A DNA stretch of 32,718 nt from Pseudomonadota bacterium (GTDB lineage Bacteria; Bdellovibrionota; Bacteriovoracia; Bacteriovoracales; Bacteriovoracaceae): the NCBI GenBank assembly GCA_027487685.1, contig JAIYDC010000037.1, positions 1 to 32,718 of the forward strand, in the 5' to 3' direction. Shown here one piece after another: positions 277 to 32,247 of the stretch (position 1 is the first letter of the stretch; each line of letters opens with the position of its first letter). A program made the translations under genes and the position numbers. Under the pieces are notes generated by a model. The model saw only the letters and a program-made list of their open reading frames with translations, had not been told where the DNA came from and did not search any database.

Positions 277-1305
277 TTATGTTCCTACAAAGAAGTCTTT
301 CGGTAGCCCCGCTTTCTGAAGCTTGGGGAAACAAGCTGGGACTAATCCCGTAAAGCAGAGTTCACCATTTTTTTGAAGACCTATGTCCTGAAGAAGAATC
401 CTATCTCCTTCAACACCTGAAATTTCTGTCAGTTGATGGACAATCCTTGATCCGGATTTGTCCCGACGGATTTGGATGATGAAATCCAGGGCGGTAGAGA
501 TCTGATAGCGCAGGGCCCTCAGGGGAAGGTCGTGGCCTGAGAGCATGTAGAGATTTTCTAGGCGCAGCAGCGATTCGCTGGGGGAGTTGGAATGAACACT
601 CGTCATAGATCCTTCGTGCCCGGTATTCATCGCCTGTAAGAGATCGAAGACCTCCCCGCCGCGGACCTCTCCAACGATAATCCGGTCAGGTCTCATGCGG
701 AGGGTGTTTTTAAGAAGATCTTGAATTGAAAGACCTCGTTGGTCTCCCAAAGCTGGTCTAGCCTCAAGGCGCACGACATTAGGGAGATTGAACTGAAGCT
801 CGCGGGTATCTTCGATAGTGATGATTCGCTCCCGTGGGGAGATCTCCTGAAGCAGAAGGTTAAGGAACGTGGTTTTTCCCACGCCAGTGCCGCCGGAAAC
901 TACGACGTTCATACGAGCTTTGACGAGAAGTTTAAGGAACGTAACCCAGGGGGCAGAGAGGCCAAAGATATCAGGAGCTCCATCAAAATTTTTGATTGCT
1001 GGTGAATAGCGCCGGATCGTAACGGCGTGAGTTGTGTTGGTATAGTCCCGATGAATAAGGTTAACTCGCGAACCGTCGGCCAGGTTTCCATCGAGGATAG
1101 GATGACGAGCATCGAAGTCCTTCCGATTAAAGAGCGCAACCTCTTTGCAAAAAGCGTCGATTTCCTCTTCGGTGAATTTCGCATCGATCCGGATCATTTC
1201 ACCATCTTTCTCGACGTAAACATTATCAGTTCGATTGATAATTAATTCGGAGATACCGGTCTTTCGTGAGAGCTCATCAATGAAGTCATTGATCCGATTT
1301 TTCAT
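277..1305 (-). CDS. cpaF: CpaF/TadA-family secretion ATPase
   Basis: Predicted cytoplasmic hexameric ATPase that powers Flp/Tad-type pilus or type II/IV secretion assembly. Visible motifs are Walker A GGTGVGKT (residues 138-145), the Asp box TIEDTREL (163-170), Walker B IIVGEVRG (209-216, Glu213) and the His box with [13 protein letters not shown] (228-240). At 342 residues it is shorter than classical CpaF (about 450), because the region before the N-terminal sensor domain is reduced. The C-terminal part keeps the family's DIG...G...FTGLVP pattern. An AGGAAA site lies 6 nt before the ATG. It follows the 229-residue gene after 8 nt, so the two are probably cotranscribed. No other tad gene (prepilin, TadB/C, secretin) is in the window, so its machine partners must be elsewhere. 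Confidence 0.9.
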
Positions 1306-1313
1306 GAGATTTC

Positions 1314-2003
1314 CTATATCCTATCGTCGAGGAACATGTCTGGTTCCCGGATGCTGGCCCCGTAAGTGAGAAGGTTTTTAAACATCCACTCACGATGGGT
1401 GGTTGAGAGCAACGGGTAAATCGCATCCATGGGCTCGCCGGCGGCAAGGGCCCTAGAAAGCATGGTCTCTCCAAGGCCTTCGAGAAGATGGGTCACGATT
1501 AGGAGCACCCAGTCCAGCTTCTCTGAACGTCCTTGCGTGTGCTTCAGGAGGCCATCGACCTCAACCGGGATCCGCAGCTCCAGAAACTTTCCGGAAGCTT
1601 CGTTCAGGAGCTTTAAGTTTGAGAGTTTCAGATACAATCCCAACAAAAAAACACGGGAGTTCCCACTTGTGCCGTAGGGTCCAAATCTCACTTCTAAGGT
1701 GCGTACCTCGTCCACAAGGTCGAGATACGTTAACGTCGGATAGATGCCATGAATCGTCTTGTAAATGTAGAGACTCGCGAACCGATCCCGGAAACCAGGC
1801 CACCCTAGAGCAGTCAGAGCTTTCTCGAGACTTCGACCTCCATGGAACTCGGTCATCGTGCGCTCGAGGAGTAATTGCACCGCGGGATTGGCACTTATCG
1901 TCTGGAGGATGGTCTCCGGAGCAACATTCGTGGGCAAGTTAAGCTTAAGCAGGTTCAACAGCTCGGCCGGAAGAATGACGTGTGGTAACTGCAGCATATC
2001 CAT
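1314..2003 (-). CDS. Helical protein of unknown function, upstream partner of cpaF
   Basis: A 229-residue protein without signal peptide or obvious membrane helix, rich in Leu and predicted mostly alpha-helical. The segment around residues 25-75 (PETILQTISANPAV ... SLEKALTALGWPGFRDRF) loosely recalls the HDOD pattern, in which a 'DPxL' helix is followed by 'Ai..LG...lr'. That resemblance is weak and may be coincidental. The gene ends 8 nt before cpaF on the same strand, so it probably works with that ATPase, perhaps as an accessory or regulatory subunit. No strong ribosome binding site precedes the ATG; a GAGAG lies about 14 nt upstream. I do not recognise the family. Confidence 0.7.
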   Translation of the reverse strand: MDMLQLPHVILPAELLNLLKLNLPTNVAPETILQTISANPAVQLLLERTMTEFHGGRSLEKALTALGWPGFRDRFASLYIYKTIHGIYPTLTYLDLVDEVRTLEVRFGPYGTSGNSRVFLLGLYLKLSNLKLLNEASGKFLELRIPVEVDGLLKHTQGRSEKLDWVLLIVTHLLEGLGETMLSRALAAGEPMDAIYPLLSTTHREWMFKNLLTYGASIREPDMFLDDRI

Positions 2004-2099
2004 AAATCCGACTATTTCTCTCGCGGCGTAGAGTGGGAGGAAGTATTCCTATTAAATCATGAGTGTGGACTTTCACCAAGGCTTTCTAAATAATAAGAT

Positions 2100-2600
2100 A
2101 TGACGTTACCGACGTATCAACACCTCACTCTGAAGACCTCATCTCTTGAGGAACTTGAAGCAATTCTCGACACCGGTATGAATCTGCGTCACCCAGTGGT
2201 TATGAATCTCAAGGCCCTGACACTTGACCAGCAGCGAGAGGCGATCGGTGTGGTAGAAAACTTCTTCGTCAGTAACAATGTTTCTTTCCGGTTTCCCTAC
2301 TCTATCTACGTCGTCAGCGATCACGAGCCCAGCATATCCAGGCTCTCTCTTATCGACGATGTCGCCAGGCTTCCCAAGTTCTTCTCCCCAAGAGACTCGA
2401 AGATCAATGTGAAGGAGACACAGCTCGCCGCCCGTAACAAGCTCCTCCAGCAGGAAGTAAAAAACACGGATACATCCTCAAGTGCAGCGGAACTCGATTT
2501 TTACAGCGAGGCCCACCGTAAGATTAATGAACTCGAGCAAGAAAGATCTTTCTATCATACGATCCTAAACTCACTTAAGAAGGGTCACCCCCATGGATAA
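2100..2600 (+). CDS. Unknown protein with possible SepF-like domain and C-terminal coiled coil
   Basis: A 166-residue cytoplasmic protein, first gene of a two-gene operon divergent from the cpaF pair. Residues 12-75 follow the pattern of the SepF fold: a helix 'SLEELEAILDTG', a strand 'HPVVMNL', a helix 'TLDQQREAIGVVENFF' and two strands ending 'SIYVVSD'. SepF tethers FtsZ to the membrane in Gram-positive bacteria and archaea. The resemblance is in pattern only, and the usual N-terminal amphipathic membrane anchor is absent. Residues 132-160 look like a short coiled coil. The last 8 nt overlap the start of the next gene, which suggests translational coupling. The ribosome binding site is weak. 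Confidence 0.65.
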   Translation: MTLPTYQHLTLKTSSLEELEAILDTGMNLRHPVVMNLKALTLDQQREAIGVVENFFVSNNVSFRFPYSIYVVSDHEPSISRLSLIDDVARLPKFFSPRDSKINVKETQLAARNKLLQQEVKNTDTSSSAAELDFYSEAHRKINELEQERSFYHTILNSLKKGHPHG

Positions 2601-2970
2601 GAAGAAGCTGGTCATCGACGATACTGAGGATCTGCGAGGGTTTGAGGAATTCATCCAAGGTCAGGACGGAGATTCACATTTCCTGCCTCGAGGCGTGGGT
2701 GGTAGCACGAGAAAAAATGAAACCGGCTTCGAACATTTCACTTTCCTTACCAATGACGCCTCTCGGCTCCATAAGATCAAAGATCTTCTCGCAAGAAAAC
2801 TGCCTTTCGCCTATAAATTTGAGCAAGGACGCAAGATCGTTAAAGACCAAACCACTGAGGTGGAGCTTCTGCGTAGTAAAATCTATCAGCTCTGTCAGGA
2901 ACCCAATTCCGGTTATCGCAAGGCCCTGGCCGAAACCTTCGATCCCTTTTTTACCCCACCCAAGATCTAA
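2593..2970 (+). CDS. Hypothetical protein, translationally coupled to the preceding gene
   Basis: A 125-residue acidic-to-neutral protein with no signal peptide or membrane segment. It starts inside the end of the preceding gene (8-nt overlap), so the two products are probably made in fixed ratio and may interact. The middle (residues 45-90) contains alternating hydrophobic positions (FEHFTFLT, KIKDLLARKLPFAYKF) consistent with a small alpha/beta fold. I do not recognise a family. The TAA stop overlaps the stop codon of the convergent gene on the other strand (shared CTAA), leaving no room for a terminator between them. Confidence 0.65.
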   Translation: MDKKKLVIDDTEDLRGFEEFIQGQDGDSHFLPRGVGGSTRKNETGFEHFTFLTNDASRLHKIKDLLARKLPFAYKFEQGRKIVKDQTTEVELLRSKIYQLCQEPNSGYRKALAETFDPFFTPPKI

Positions 2971-16932: not shown

Positions 16933-17676
16933 TTAAGGCCCCAGCTTGGCCACTCCCATGTAAGATAAGAGTAAATTACGAGTCAGGGCGAACTCAAGCT
17001 CCGGGCAAACGATTCCGGTCCGGAGCATGTTCCAGCTTATGGTCGAGAGCTTGGGTCTGATCCCCGTGAGCGCCATGACCTCCATCCCTGCCTGGGCACA
17101 GTACGCACGAAGCTCTTCGGGTTTTATAAAGAGTTCGATCACGTGCATATTCTTTGGCGTGTTCTGAATGAACCACTCGAGAAGCTTGATCACAACCAGA
17201 TGCGCGAGAGGATTGCGGTTGAACGTGTGGAAAAAGAAGAGGCCTCCGGGGGCAAGAACACGGGAGAATTCACGGATCGCTCGCGCGGGGTCATCCACGT
17301 GCTCAAGGAAATCCATCGCCGTGACGACATCAAAACTCCGGTCTGGGTACGGAAGCTCGTAGGCGTCAGCGACGTCGTAACGGACAGTACCGCTCGTATC
17401 GTATCGTTTAGCGACTCTGAGGGATTCGGGAGAAAGATCAACTCCGGTTACGGCATAACCTTGGCGCGCCAGCTCGTTAGAGAGGAAGCCTCCTCCGCAG
17501 CCTACATCGAGAATTTGCTGGCCGCTGTGACCCATCGCCTGAAGTTTATTCAGGATCCATGGAAACTTGACCCGGTTTTCTGCGCGCAGAAGAGCGACAG
17601 GATCGTCATAGGCGGTATACCAACGGTCCCCATAAGTTTCGTAGATACTATTGTCTATCTGGCGATCGGTTTCCAC
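16933..17676 (-). CDS. UbiG-like SAM-dependent methyltransferase
   Basis: A 247-residue class I methyltransferase. Motif I ILDVGCGGG is at residues 55-63, the SAM-binding acid is Asp80 (VTGVDLS), and FDVVTAMDFLEHVDDP follows. The C-terminal part (GLFFFHTFNRNP, IKPEELRAYC) resembles UbiG, which O-methylates catechol rings of quinones. I chose GTG 17676, with GGAG 7 nt upstream; the frame is open further upstream, but that part overlaps the preceding gene. It overlaps that gene by 22 nt and is last in an operon with a type III polyketide synthase. It therefore more likely methylates a polyketide-derived phenol or pyrone than ubiquinone. Confidence 0.85.
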   Translation of the reverse strand: METDRQIDNSIYETYGDRWYTAYDDPVALLRAENRVKFPWILNKLQAMGHSGQQILDVGCGGGFLSNELARQGYAVTGVDLSPESLRVAKRYDTSGTVRYDVADAYELPYPDRSFDVVTAMDFLEHVDDPARAIREFSRVLAPGGLFFFHTFNRNPLAHLVVIKLLEWFIQNTPKNMHVIELFIKPEELRAYCAQAGMEVMALTGIRPKLSTISWNMLRTGIVCPELEFALTRNLLLSYMGVAKLGP

Positions 17677-18095
17677 AGGTAGCTCCAGAAAATGATTTGA
17701 TAAAAGAAGAATAGGCCCAAGACCACAGGCTGCGTAGCCAGCACGATATCTGTCGGATCGGTCCACCAAAGAAAGCCGGTGGCAACGAAGACCAAAGGGT
17801 GAAGGACGAAAAGGACTGCGTGGACCCAATGCTCACGCGCATCACACTCGCGGGCATGGACGAATTCGTCTTTTGTTACCAAGACGCAGGAAACGGCAGA
17901 GGCAGCGATAAAAATCTGAAGATGTGTCTCGGAGAATTCGAGGAATGCCGCCAACGAGATTGGAATAAAGACCGAGAGAGTATCCAACGGATGACCCATC
18001 CGCTCCCACGCACCTAAACCTCGACGGCGATGAATCCCCTCGTCATAAATCATGAGCATTCCCTGAAGCAATAATGGAAGGTAGAGAAGCTTCAC
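17655..18095 (-). CDS. His/Glu-rich membrane protein in a type III PKS operon
   Basis: A 146-residue integral membrane protein with four hydrophobic segments. Two cytoplasmic-face-like stretches are unusually rich in metal-type ligands: residues 19-38 with Glu19, His22, Glu31, His35 and Asp38 (DEGIHRRRGLGAWERMGHPLD), and residues 76-99 with Asp76, Glu77, His80, Glu83, Glu88, His89, His92 and His99. This spacing suggests a membrane metalloenzyme, such as a hydroxylase or desaturase-like protein, but no named family fits with certainty. It begins at GTG, overlapping the PKS stop by 4 nt (GTGA), and its end overlaps the methyltransferase start. It is therefore tightly coupled to both and probably acts on the same product. 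Confidence 0.75.
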   Translation of the reverse strand: MKLLYLPLLLQGMLMIYDEGIHRRRGLGAWERMGHPLDTLSVFIPISLAAFLEFSETHLQIFIAASAVSCVLVTKDEFVHARECDAREHWVHAVLFVLHPLVFVATGFLWWTDPTDIVLATQPVVLGLFFFYQIIFWSYLWKPIAR

Positions 18096-19183
18096 AAGTT
18101 AACCTCGAAGACTGATCCAAAGATCGTGAGACCGGGCCCAAAGGCAAAGCTCACGATAAGGGTGCCGGCCGGTGGCCCTGAACTTAGGATCTCCTGCCAA
18201 ACGTGGGGAAGGGTGGCCGACGACATGTTCCCACGAGCGAAGAGGACGGCCTTACTTTGCCGTACCTGATCATCCCCGAGTTCAAGCTTCTTCTGGACCG
18301 CTTCGATGATCTTAGGTCCACCTGGATGTACAGCGAAGATGGCCTTCGTACGAAGCTCGGCCGACGAAACCCCGGCCTTCTGAGAGAGCTCTTCGAGAAA
18401 ATCCGGCAAATAATCACGGATCTTGAACGGAACTTCCTTAGATAGAGTCATCATCATTCCCGTGGGCCCCGGGATCCATGTCATATCGTCTGAAGAATCT
18501 GGGATCATGCGCTCACGGATCGCAAGGATTCGTAGACCTCGGGGAGCAAGTCCTACCGTGTACTTGATATGACCATCGGCAAACAAGCTCTGAACCACCA
18601 TCTGCTCCGGGGTCGAAACCATCGGATCAAGGTGAAGAGAGCAAAGTTCATTATGGACAACGTCGACGTCTTCGCCACTCCCGAGCACAAGTCCGCGCCC
18701 AAGTCGGATAGCTGGGAGTGAGGCATAGCAGCCCATATGGTAGGCGTGAGTTACCGCCGTGGCACCGGCCCTGTTAGAAAAAAAACGTTGGACTGGGCTT
18801 GGAGAAAGATAACCCGTACAGCTGACGTGAACGACGTGGGCCGGAGTCTTATTGCTGTAGAGCTCTTCTAGAACTCTATCCACCGCCCGACCATAAAAAA
18901 GATTGCGCTCTCGAGAAGACACCCCGCTGGGCGCCTGTGCAGATATCCGGTAGATGGCGTGGGACTCCCAATCTTCATCCAAATCGTCGCATTCATAATA
19001 GCGCTCCCGGATGTAGCTAGCGGGTAAACAAAACCGGGCGAGCCGATCGACGTCGATGGCCTCACCTCGCACTTGTGCCGAACGCAAGTGCGCTTGTAAA
19101 AGCCAACGGGTTGTCTTTTCCTGCGGAAGATGGTGAGGGGGTAGAACGGATTTGAAATCATAAAGGTAGGTATTTATTTCCAT
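18092..19183 (-). CDS. Type III polyketide synthase (chalcone/stilbene synthase family)
   Basis: Homodimeric ketosynthase that extends an acyl-CoA starter with malonyl-CoA and cyclises the chain to an alkylresorcinol, alkylpyrone or similar product. The catalytic triad is in place: Cys152 (HMGCYASLPAIRLG), His286 (AVHPGGPKI) and Asn319 (ARGNMSSATLP), with spacing close to chalcone synthase. The FGPG loop (FAFGPGLT, residues 346-353) is also present. The 363-residue length is normal. The N-terminal 60 residues are less conserved. It is the first gene of a three-gene operon followed by a membrane protein and a methyltransferase. Starter and ring type cannot be read from sequence. Confidence 0.93.
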   Translation of the reverse strand: MEINTYLYDFKSVLPPHHLPQEKTTRWLLQAHLRSAQVRGEAIDVDRLARFCLPASYIRERYYECDDLDEDWESHAIYRISAQAPSGVSSRERNLFYGRAVDRVLEELYSNKTPAHVVHVSCTGYLSPSPVQRFFSNRAGATAVTHAYHMGCYASLPAIRLGRGLVLGSGEDVDVVHNELCSLHLDPMVSTPEQMVVQSLFADGHIKYTVGLAPRGLRILAIRERMIPDSSDDMTWIPGPTGMMMTLSKEVPFKIRDYLPDFLEELSQKAGVSSAELRTKAIFAVHPGGPKIIEAVQKKLELGDDQVRQSKAVLFARGNMSSATLPHVWQEILSSGPPAGTLIVSFAFGPGLTIFGSVFEVNL

Positions 19184-29572: not shown

Positions 29573-29648
29573 GCGGTTGTAGCTCAGTTGGTAGAGCGTC
29601 TGCTTGCCATGCAGAAGGTCGTCAGTTCGAATCTGATCAGCCGCTCCA
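29573..29648 (+). tRNA. tRNA-Gly (anticodon GCC)
   Basis: A 76-nt cloverleaf can be drawn by hand. The acceptor stem is GCGGTTG/CAGCCGC with one G-U pair, the D-arm is GCTCAGTTGGTAGAGC, the anticodon stem is TCTGC/GCAGA with loop TTGCCAT (anticodon GCC), and the T-arm is GTCAG-TTCGAAT-CTGAT. The discriminator is U73, as expected for glycine, and CCA is encoded. An integrase gene follows in opposite orientation, so the 3' half is the likely attachment site. Confidence 0.95.
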
Positions 29649-29675
29649 AATTAATTCCTTTAGTTCCTGATAGAT

Positions 29676-29709
29676 AAAGGGCCACGTCATGTGGCCCTTT
29701 TCTTTTTCG
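29676..29709. terminator. Terminator between tRNA-Gly and the integrase gene
   Basis: AAAGGGCCAC (29676-29685) and GTGGCCCTTT (29691-29700) form a 10-bp stem with a 5-nt loop. On the plus strand it runs into TTTCTTTTTC, a good terminator for the tRNA. It could also stop transcripts from the convergent integrase gene. Confidence 0.88.
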
Positions 29710-29744
29710 TCATCAAGATGTCCCAAATCTGTCCCAAGAGGATT

Positions 29745-30893
29745 TTATTTAATCATCTTGAGCACCTTTTCTCCTGCATCACTCACGTTCAAACTCGGCA
29801 TCTCTCCGATTTCTTCAATGTCCTTCCCTATTACGTGCACGTACCTCATGGTGGTTTTGATATCCTTATGTCCGGCAATTTTTTGAATCACTGGTAATAG
29901 GACACCCTTTTTCACCATCAACGTTAAAGCAGTGTGTCTGAGGTCATGAAAGCGTATGGCACGAACTCCACACTCCTTCGTATCCTTCTTAAAGACTCTT
30001 TCCTTAAAGTTGTCGTGATCAATGGCAGTACCGGATCTGGACATGAATAACGTCGACTCCAGCGCTCTTAGCTCAGATTCTTGCATGAGCATGGAATTAA
30101 GTTCTTCGCGCAAGCTCTGACTGAAGGGAACGAACCTTGCGTCCTTCCCTTTCGTGGGAGCAAAAGAATTTCCTCCAAGGCTCTGCCTTAAAACTTTGAG
30201 CTTAGTTCCAGATCCAGGAATATCTGAGACTTTTATCCCCCAGAGCTCCCGGGCCCTCATTCCCGTTTCAAGCGCCATCAGATAAGCGCAGTAAACCCAA
30301 CGTTTCTCCGAGCCCCTTGGGTATATAGAATTGGTGTAGCCTAAAAAGCGCTGTACCTCTTCTGCGTCCCAAAAAAGCATCTCTTCTCTTATTTCCCGAG
30401 CCTTCTCGTAACCAAAACAAGGATTGGAATTAATTCTTCGCTGTTTGTAGGAGAAATTAATAATCCTTGTCACGAGATCGGCGTACCTATTCTGAGTGGC
30501 GGGACTTAATCCTTCGCTTTTCAGAAAAAGCCTGAATTCTAAAAGTAGAGAGGGTGTGAACCTCGAAACTGGATAATGTCCAAAGAGCTTCCTAACCTTT
30601 TTCAAGCACGGATTAATTGAACGGTAGTATCCCGGCGTGAATTCTCCACCTTTCTTTAAAAGCCAATAGTCTGCTTCCTCATTAAAGCTAGTCCCTTCGA
30701 TATCAGAAGTTGGCCTAATCGAATGTGGTAATAAGGCCTCACGTTTTCTAAATTTGAGAGAATCTAAGAATTCCTGCGCATCCACTTTCTTTTCAAAGCG
30801 TCGCCTGATCTTTTTATCTCCCATTCCTGGCAAGCGTTCAGTAACCTCCCACCGAATTAAATTGTTGGGGAGGGCAATTTTTTTAATAGGCAT
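29745..30893 (-). CDS. int: Tyrosine recombinase (phage/island integrase)
   Basis: Site-specific recombinase that integrates and excises a mobile element. The catalytic residues are visible: Arg213 (ETGMRARELWG), Lys near 250 (PTKGKDARFVPF), His316 and Arg319 (FHDLRHTAL), His342 (AGHKDIKTTMRYVHV) and nucleophile Tyr351. Residues 65-160 form the SAM-like core-binding domain, and the N-terminal 50 residues an arm-type DNA-binding region. AGGAG precedes the ATG. It lies about 100 nt from the tRNA-Gly 3' end, convergent with it, the classic arrangement for an element integrated in a tRNA gene. It is AT-richer than the genes to its left. Confidence 0.95.
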   Translation of the reverse strand: MPIKKIALPNNLIRWEVTERLPGMGDKKIRRRFEKKVDAQEFLDSLKFRKREALLPHSIRPTSDIEGTSFNEEADYWLLKKGGEFTPGYYRSINPCLKKVRKLFGHYPVSRFTPSLLLEFRLFLKSEGLSPATQNRYADLVTRIINFSYKQRRINSNPCFGYEKAREIREEMLFWDAEEVQRFLGYTNSIYPRGSEKRWVYCAYLMALETGMRARELWGIKVSDIPGSGTKLKVLRQSLGGNSFAPTKGKDARFVPFSQSLREELNSMLMQESELRALESTLFMSRSGTAIDHDNFKERVFKKDTKECGVRAIRFHDLRHTALTLMVKKGVLLPVIQKIAGHKDIKTTMRYVHVIGKDIEEIGEMPSLNVSDAGEKVLKMIK

Positions 30894-30905
30894 AGTTTCT
30901 CCTCT

Positions 30906-31190
30906 TTATAAGGAGGAACTTCGATCAGATACCCATGCACATAGAATATCTTTTCTCAAGTAAAGCCCGCCGCCCACTTTCAGGAACAAATTGGATGGGA
31001 TCTTTCTCTTTCTCGTCTTTCCCCGGTAATGCCAGTCATAAAGTGTTTTTACAGATTTGTTTAACACTCTCGCCGCATCTTCCGGTATCATCAATTCAGG
31101 CAAATTTTCAAAGAGCTTTCTGATTCCCACAATACCAGAATTCCCCTCACCCTCATAGGCCTCATTTCTTTTTTTCTCGCTATCTCTCAA
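30906..31190 (-). CDS. Excisionase-like helix-turn-helix protein
   Basis: A protein of up to 94 residues with a winged helix-turn-helix of the MerR/excisionase type: 'MIPEDAARVLNKSVKTLYDWHYRG', then a basic wing 'TRKRKIPSNLF' and 'YLRKDILCAWV'. Such proteins (Xis, AlpA-like) bend DNA at attachment sites to favour excision. It ends 12 nt before the integrase start, so the two are cotranscribed. The start is uncertain: TTG 31190 is the farthest, GTG 31130 has GAGGGG 12 nt upstream, and an ATG lies just before the conserved domain. Confidence 0.8.
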   Translation of the reverse strand: MRDSEKKRNEAYEGEGNSGIVGIRKLFENLPELMIPEDAARVLNKSVKTLYDWHYRGKTRKRKIPSNLFLKVGGGLYLRKDILCAWVSDRSSSL

Positions 31191-31325
31191 TCCTAACCCC
31201 CTGTTAACTTCCTAATCCCATCACTCCTTCTTCGTCACCATCCTTCGTTATTGTTTTTATTACTTCTATCTGAAGCAAATCCTTATTTTTCCCTCCAACC
31301 CAATTTTTGTTCTCATCTCCCCCTT

Positions 31326-31390
31326 CCGCCTTCATCACTGACCACCTACCTTCAACAACGTTGGGGGTAGGTGGTCAGTGATGAAGGCGG
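31326..31390. repeat. Perfect 25-bp inverted repeat (long hairpin)
   Basis: The arms at 31326-31350 and 31366-31390 are exact reverse complements over 25 nt. They are separated by a 15-nt loop that itself contains CAAC/GTTG. The hairpin starts 8 nt beyond the stop of the replication-relaxation gene and has no T-tract on either side, so it is not an ordinary terminator. Its position in a mobile element suggests an origin, recombination or mRNA-stabilising role, which remains unproven. Confidence 0.95.
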
Positions 31391-31398
31391 TTCATGTA

Positions 31399-32247
31399 TT
31401 ATGGGGGTGAAGTTAAAATTGGTGTTTGATTACTGTCAGTTATTAGATTATTTTGATTCGTTGTTTTTACTTTCTGCCTGCTCACCCCATGAGCACCTAG
31501 TGGTACAGCTTTCATGATCCAGGATTCGCCTAAGGTAAGAACTGGTTTCGTGCCAAGAAGCCTGGCCTTAGGAGGAGATTCCACGATCTCTTGCAATAAT
31601 GAGCCGTAAAATTTAACTTTGCTTTTCAGTCCCCCACAGATTTGCCATTGCTTCCAAACACTACTTAAAATGGATAATTTCGGGGCCACGTACCAAAGTG
31701 CGTAGAAGCCTCCTTTAGAAATATACCTATGAAGTGTTTTCTTAATTCGAGTTTGGTTTTTTAAATTCAGCTCTAGTTCCAAAGCTACAGATTCATTTTT
31801 ACCATTCACTTGAATACCAATTAGACCATCTGGAACAATGCGCTCATGAATGTCCTTGGCGCCATGCTTCCTGAAAATCTCAGAACGAATGAGATGTTCA
31901 GGCATCCATGAATGAGCAATTCCTGATACTTCTAAATTAAGCCGAAGATCAACGAGAAGGTAATCATGCTCAAGCATGTTCTTACTCCAATGGGTCTTAG
32001 GTATTGTCACCCTCATCTCTCTGCCTCCCTTTGTTGTGAGCATCCATAGGAGTTCTTGAGACTCAAGACCCATGACCCGTTTGATGAGCCCCTTACTTTC
32101 CAAAAGTCGAAGACGCCGCAAAACTGTCGTTCTCGCGATTCCCCCGAAGAAGTGGTTCTTGATATGAGAACTACCGAGCATTCCATATGTAGAAAGCGAC
32201 TTCATGAGGTATGCATCACGTTTAGTCTGTTGATATGAAATTCTCAT
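31399..32247 (-). CDS. Replication-relaxation family protein
   Basis: A 282-residue protein matching the Replic_Relax family of plasmids and integrative elements. The N-terminal 90 residues form a winged helix: 'STYGMLGSSHIKNHFFGGIARTTVLRRLRLLESKGLIKRV'. Next come the family signatures 'MLEHDYLLVDLRLNL', 'SWMPEHLIRSE', 'IVPDGLIGI' and 'ALELELNLKNQTRIKKTLHRY', which recall a nuclease-like fold with acidic residues. Proteins of this family are associated with replication or conjugative processing, and their exact activity is poorly known. The ATG overlaps the preceding stop by 4 nt. A 25-bp hairpin follows the stop after 8 nt. Confidence 0.75.
   Translation of the reverse strand: MRISYQQTKRDAYLMKSLSTYGMLGSSHIKNHFFGGIARTTVLRRLRLLESKGLIKRVMGLESQELLWMLTTKGGREMRVTIPKTHWSKNMLEHDYLLVDLRLNLEVSGIAHSWMPEHLIRSEIFRKHGAKDIHERIVPDGLIGIQVNGKNESVALELELNLKNQTRIKKTLHRYISKGGFYALWYVAPKLSILSSVWKQWQICGGLKSKVKFYGSLLQEIVESPPKARLLGTKPVLTLGESWIMKAVPLGAHGVSRQKVKTTNQNNLITDSNQTPILTSPP

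Follow-up and report, generated by a model that had tools for sequence, protein, structure and literature searches.

The closest solved relatives of the enzyme at the head of the operon studied here are ArsB and ArsC, the type III polyketide synthases (PKS) of Azotobacter vinelandii, whose ars operon works with fatty acid synthases. We know of no description, in that operon, of the small membrane protein reported below and hereafter called MEM. The srsABC genes of Streptomyces griseus, coding for a PKS, a methyltransferase and a hydroxylase, lead to methoxylated alkylresorcinol-derived quinones; the methyltransferase, SrsB, is a membrane protein, and the hydroxylase, SrsC, a flavoprotein. The latter has been described as a stand-alone hydroxylase (PMC8086630). 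Hierridin B is both hydroxylated and O-methylated on its ring, and its gene set comprises a methyltransferase, an oxidoreductase and a PKS; the oxidoreductase of planctomycete clusters showed no demonstrated role when expressed (PMC10896814).

We analysed a 32,718-nucleotide stretch of bacterial DNA (the window), in which a PKS, MEM and a methyltransferase (MT) are encoded together. In hidABC and in the planctomycete methyltransferase-FAD-PKS operons, an FAD oxidoreductase is found where the window operon has MEM, and the gene order differs (PMC8086630, PMC10896814); unlike in the hidABC type, no FAD-dependent oxidoreductase gene lies beside the PKS gene in the window operon. The operon also departs from srsABC in its UbiG-like methyltransferase and in MEM, which is not a membrane methyltransferase and not a flavoprotein. 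Type III PKS clusters have been counted by genome mining in Chlamydiae and in Bdellovibrio LR3, with no product named in the accessible parts of these papers (PMC9666466, PMC12843806, PMC13229535), and the accessible part of a paper naming both Bdellovibrio and alkylresorcinol mentions them separately. No published description of MEM was found in the literature searched. The combination of a type III PKS with tailoring genes is thus a known kind of cluster, while MEM and the three-gene set are undescribed as far as our searches show. Compared with the known systems, this locus brings a three-gene pathway that is conserved, a core predicted to be an alkylresorcinol, and a membrane family with fourteen invariant or nearly invariant charged or histidine residues.

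Organization and conservation of the three-gene set

Reading of the sequence and its open reading frames places three overlapping genes on the minus strand of the window, in the order PKS, MEM, MT. The features discussed below are:

19183-18092, minus strand: PKS, an ArsB/ArsC-like type III PKS of 363 residues, predicted from Pfam, PDB matches and key residues to be an alkylresorcinol synthase
18095-17655, minus strand: MEM, a 146-residue protein of an undescribed family with five predicted transmembrane (TM) helices; its GTG start overlies the PKS stop
17676-16933, minus strand: MT, a UbiG-like SAM methyltransferase of 247 residues, with a GTG start at 17676 and its stop at 16933
18476-18478, minus strand: Trp236 codon of PKS, the position of the ArsB Trp281/ArsC Gly284 cyclisation switch in the alignment with 3vs9 and 3vs8
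17982-18044, minus strand: MEM hairpin 1, residues 18-38, D18 E19 xx H22 xx R25 ... E31 xxx H35 xx D38
17799-17873, minus strand: MEM hairpin 2, residues 75-99, K75 D76 E77 xx H80 ... E88 xxx H92 ... H99

The PKS and MEM genes overlap by 4 nt (GTGA) and the MEM and MT genes by 22 nt; re-reading of the window bore out these overlaps, as well as the coordinates and strand, as given in the initial annotation. Its neighbours on either side are an ileS-like gene, converging from the plus strand, and an unrelated plus-strand ORF, both identified by eye. A promoter and terminator scan of the operon gave no signal exceeding that of shuffled sequences, and outside the operon no neighbour is common to the loci across the window's phylum. 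Elsewhere in the window, a tRNA-Gly gene (29573-29648, plus strand) is followed by a tyrosine-recombinase-like ORF (29745-30893, minus strand) and a replication-relaxation-like ORF (31399-32247, minus strand), the identities of both ORFs being read by eye; the region 29573-32247 is possibly an element integrated at the tRNA gene.

A single-protein search of 369 genomes of the window's phylum yielded 84 genes for the PKS-linked type of MEM, and in 79 cases an ArsB-like PKS gene on the same strand stands immediately upstream. The gene-order survey proposed in the initial annotation thus finds the membrane gene next to most homologous PKS genes. MEM occurs in 82 of the 89 genomes that have an ArsB-like PKS, a co-occurrence with a Fisher p of 6e-71 over the 369 genomes, which is to be taken as descriptive since related genomes are not independent. 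Orthologues of MT are found downstream of MEM in relatives. A close counterpart of the set occurs at L002/L025, with a MEM that shares 81% identity with that of the window. Beyond this phylum, a profile search of Chlamydiota detected MEM in 58 of 192 genomes, and PKS-MEM-MT was present, in unchanged order, at each of the 20 chlamydial loci that were read completely. The set is thus retained in predatory-type bacteria as well as in environmental chlamydiae. MEM and MT are fused in frame in four genomes (L037, L068, L075 and L099); the L037 fusion, modelled as one chain, reached a pLDDT of 94.5 and a pTM of 0.79. The set is split, with all three genes retained, in genomes G268 and G190, and in Bdellovibrio-like genomes (group g71) PKS and MEM stay together while an MT orthologue with 49-52% identity is located elsewhere. 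The pairwise distances measured for the three proteins are correlated (r of 0.71, 0.61 and 0.51; 0 of 500 permutations), shared ancestry of the hosts contributing to these values. The seven PKS-bearing genomes with no full MEM match are G316, where a MEM fragment adjoins the PKS gene (L095), three of group g9, the one with locus L090 and two with a lone PKS.

The polyketide synthase and the methyltransferase

PKS matches the Pfam family Chal_sti_synt_C (E 3.4e-18), and its closest PDB matches are the ArsC entries 3vs9 and 3vs8 (E about 1e-61 to 1e-60). The initial annotation described an intact catalytic triad; indeed Cys152, His286 and Asn319 are present in PKS and in 95 of 95 homologues, and the same triad is carried by ArsB and ArsC. 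Trp236 aligns with a Trp of 3vs9 and a Gly of 3vs8, and a Trp occupies this site in 94 of the 95 homologues. Entry 3vs9 is the G284W variant of ArsC and 3vs8 the wild type; Trp281 of ArsB directs synthesis to alkylresorcinols and Gly284 of ArsC to alkylpyrones (PMC6274091). As Trp236 stands at the ArsB-type position, the first product of PKS is predicted to be a 5-alkylresorcinol, and a pyrone is unlikely. The O-methylated phenolic, quinone or pyrone lipid initially proposed is thereby narrowed to one built on an alkylresorcinol, the pyrone being dropped.

MT (METHYLTRANSFERASE) scores 143 bits against the NCBIfam UbiG model TIGR01983, with a cut-off of 103, and matches Methyltransf_11 (5e-30); it is the only protein of its own genome to exceed the UbiG cut-off. 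In the same genome, no UbiH-family gene comes near its cut-off (best 23 of 225 bits) and no MqnA was found, and a MenD-like gene aligns in two pieces, under the cut-off of that model. These genes present and absent point to menaquinone as the quinone of this bacterium, so MT, although UbiG-like, probably does not act in a ubiquinone pathway. The hydroxyl that UbiG methylates has a second one in the ortho position, which makes a hydroxylase acting before MT chemically sensible.

Sequence conservation and predicted fold of MEM

MEM matched nothing in Pfam (E up to 1), in NCBIfam, in PHROGs or among the PDB sequences when searched with a 70-row profile, and plasmid records contained no MEM. The length of 146 residues stated in the initial annotation is correct. 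The AlphaFold model calculated from the 70-row alignment (pLDDT 94.5, pTM 0.88) has long helices at residues 2-25, 29-51, 56-74, 86-112 and 117-136 and, beyond a kink at residue 75, a short helix at 76-83. It therefore predicts five TM helices plus one short helix, in place of the four helices counted initially. Foldseek returned no match to the model with an E below 1. The best VIA-align rows fall on a bacterial bestrophin, in its TM region, with Z 10.1 and 3.5 Å over 129 residues; the identity is 5% and the Foldseek E exceeds 1. Z values below 13 are common for helical bundles, and bestrophin, Gip1 and sensor domains all score within this range.

Conservation was assessed on 87-89 MEM sequences from two phyla, sharing roughly 40% identity. 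Asp18, Glu19, His22, Arg25, Glu31, His35 and Asp38 are invariant (87-89 sequences), as are Lys75, Asp76, Glu77, His80, Glu88 and His92 (89/89), while His99 is kept in 88 of 89; 13 of these 14 acidic, basic and histidine positions are thus fully invariant. The two clusters of Glu, Asp and His noticed initially are therefore genuine, and the loss of these residues in homologues, named beforehand as grounds for abandoning a metal site, was looked for among the 87-89 sequences and not seen. The two clusters align as a repeat: the halves of MEM share the pattern D-E-x-x-H ... E-x-x-x-H (hhalign probability 82%), with a score of 26.7 compared with a maximum of 20.7 among 150 class-preserving column shuffles. 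Since the halves align above the shuffles, a two-helix hairpin was probably duplicated to give MEM.

In the helix register of hairpin 1, Glu19 is level with His35 and His22 with Glu31; in hairpin 2, Glu77 is level with His92 and His80 with Glu88. The model would thus bring the side chains into two layers separated by one helical turn, each with two Glu and two His, a clustering argued from helix register only. Mean Lys plus Arg counts are 3.8 in loop 1, 2.2 at the C-terminus and 0.2 in loop 2, so that, by the positive-inside rule, the side of the cluster is predicted to be cytoplasmic. The Glu/His cluster shares this side with the C-terminus, to which four genomes have MT attached.

Fatty-acid hydroxylases, COQ7 and AOX share with MEM Glu/His clusters at the membrane surface and E-xx-H motifs, and act on lipids or quinones. 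Ferritin-like di-iron enzymes of the COQ7/AOX type bind two irons through Glu and E-xx-H ligands of a four-helix bundle; in MEM, Glu19-xx-His22 and Glu77-xx-His80 lie on helical hairpins, and no sequence or Foldseek match was obtained. MEM differs from membrane di-metal and ferritin-like enzymes in having no histidine box and no Pfam match, and from fatty-acid hydroxylases, COQ7 and AOX in that its candidate ligands are spread across four TM helices, which form a repeated pair of hairpins each combining E-xx-H and E-xxx-H. Assignment to the histidine-box hydroxylases and desaturases was rejected: the pattern is DExxH...ExxxH, present twice, and not HxxxH or HxxHH.

Possible roles of MEM and variant clusters

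We tentatively favour, with a nearly even chance of being right, a role for MEM as a membrane di-metal oxygenase that hydroxylates the alkylresorcinol before O-methylation, in place of the flavoprotein of hierridin-type pathways. In this scheme, for which we infer the topology, metal binding, oxygen chemistry, order of steps and product, PKS would join a long-chain acyl starter to three malonyl-CoA units and release a 5-alkylresorcinol after aldol closure. MEM would be embedded in the inner membrane, its Glu/His cluster facing the cytoplasm, and would bind two metals, probably iron, through the ligand layers E19/H35/E77/H92 and H22/E31/H80/E88; it would then hydroxylate the ring of the alkylresorcinol lipid within the bilayer. 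MT would next O-methylate the catechol or hydroquinone so formed, in the manner of UbiG in ubiquinone synthesis. The operon product would be a membrane-resident, hydroxylated and O-methylated alkylresorcinol lipid, ending as a redox lipid of the methoxy-(hydro)quinone type.

A hydroxylase is suggested by the invariant residues, by a membrane site suited to a lipid phenol, by the UbiG-type partner and by the oxidising proteins found in MEM-less clusters. Against an oxygenase stand the lack of any sequence or significant fold match to a known oxygenase, the loss of His35, His80 and often His22 in the paralogous MEM-2 branch, which yet keeps the acids and His92/His99, and the g9 clusters of PKS, MT and UbiA, which do without MEM. 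The metal site itself is doubtful, because Arg25 and Lys75 are as invariant as the acids and a salt-bridge network could explain the cluster. The wider proposal, to which we give a somewhat less than even chance, is that MEM represents a new class of integral-membrane di-metal monooxygenases, born from duplication of a DExxH...ExxxH hairpin and replacing flavin hydroxylases in the synthesis of alkylresorcinol or quinone lipids in two phyla, including many environmental chlamydiae. Were MEM an oxygenase, it would be a new structural solution for ring hydroxylation, and obligate intracellular bacteria would possess a phenolic or quinone-like lipid of their own.

The MEM::MT fusions and the tight gene coupling suit an enzyme and a non-enzymatic partner equally. 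MEM could be a membrane scaffold, extractor or exporter that docks PKS and MT at the inner membrane and delivers the phenolic lipid onward or flips it, in which case the charged residues would form a structural or proton-coupled network. The invariance of Arg25 and Lys75 beside the acids would fit such a role, as would the bestrophin channel region heading the VIA-align rows, although that match has 5% identity and a Z common in helical bundles, and Foldseek gave no E below 1. We consider this role unlikely, since four fully invariant Glu-His pairs are more than docking requires and MEM is absent where PKS is accompanied by P450 or FAD proteins. It also seems rather improbable that MEM is a membrane enzyme of another kind acting on the alkylresorcinol, such as a metal-dependent transferase, hydrolase, isomerase or decarboxylase, or a quinol oxidase. 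Invariant acids, histidines and bases on one membrane face would fit many catalytic types, and UbiA prenyltransferases, which join the operon in some genomes, place non-oxidative tailoring nearby; but they occur both with and without MEM, and MEM matches no transferase or hydrolase family of Pfam. The spacing R25-x8-G34-x3-D38 equals that of part of the CDP-alcohol phosphatidyltransferase motif; the agreement is only partial, the motif is missing from hairpin 2, and the resemblance was judged to be due to chance. That MT is an ordinary ubiquinone UbiG, and the three genes mere neighbours with no common pathway, is very improbable: MT does pass TIGR01983, but the quinone genes of its genome argue against this, as do the gene order kept across two phyla, the fusions and the correlated distances.

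The variant clusters bear on the oxygenase proposal as follows. The three g9 genomes (L082-L084) carry PKS-MT-UbiA with MEM absent, so MT can work in a MEM-less pathway. A UbiA-family prenyltransferase gene follows MT, with a gap of -4 to 32 nt, in L082-L084 and also in L080 and L068, which have MEM; UbiA therefore does not simply replace MEM, and its position beside MT suggests prenylated product variants. At L090, which has no MEM, a P450-flavodoxin fusion gene (476-2755, minus strand) abuts the end of an ArsB-like PKS gene and encodes a possible alternative hydroxylase. L086 and L088, from the window's phylum, combine an FAD oxidoreductase and a methyltransferase with a PKS in the absence of MEM; these methyltransferases are not closely UbiG-like, and the PKSs accompanying them are distantly related (E about 1e-28 to 1e-34).

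MEM-2 (L042-L061; for example L044, 4054-4506, minus strand) is about 30% identical to MEM. Its genes are not beside PKS or MT, and no neighbour common to these loci shows a role. MEM-2 retains Asp18, Arg25, Glu31, Asp38, Lys75, Glu77, Glu88, His92 and His99, with Glu19 in 18 of 20 sequences; His35 is lost, His80 is almost always lost (Tyr in 19/20) and His22 often. The additional histidines therefore go with the PKS pathway, and the acidic core with two histidines is, judging from this distribution, older or more general.

A few neighbours of the operon are weak hints of redox biology. In the chlamydial loci L142, L149, L151, L106 and L116, MT is followed on its own strand, after 6-47 nt, by a gene for a thiol peroxidase (Tpx); further chlamydial genomes have one within about 2.2 kb of the operon. 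A DoxX-family gene is divergent from a separate MT gene in L135 and L137, and in the Bdellovibrio-like L062 (1577-2863) and L063 an NDH-2-type NADH dehydrogenase gene stands just upstream of PKS-MEM.
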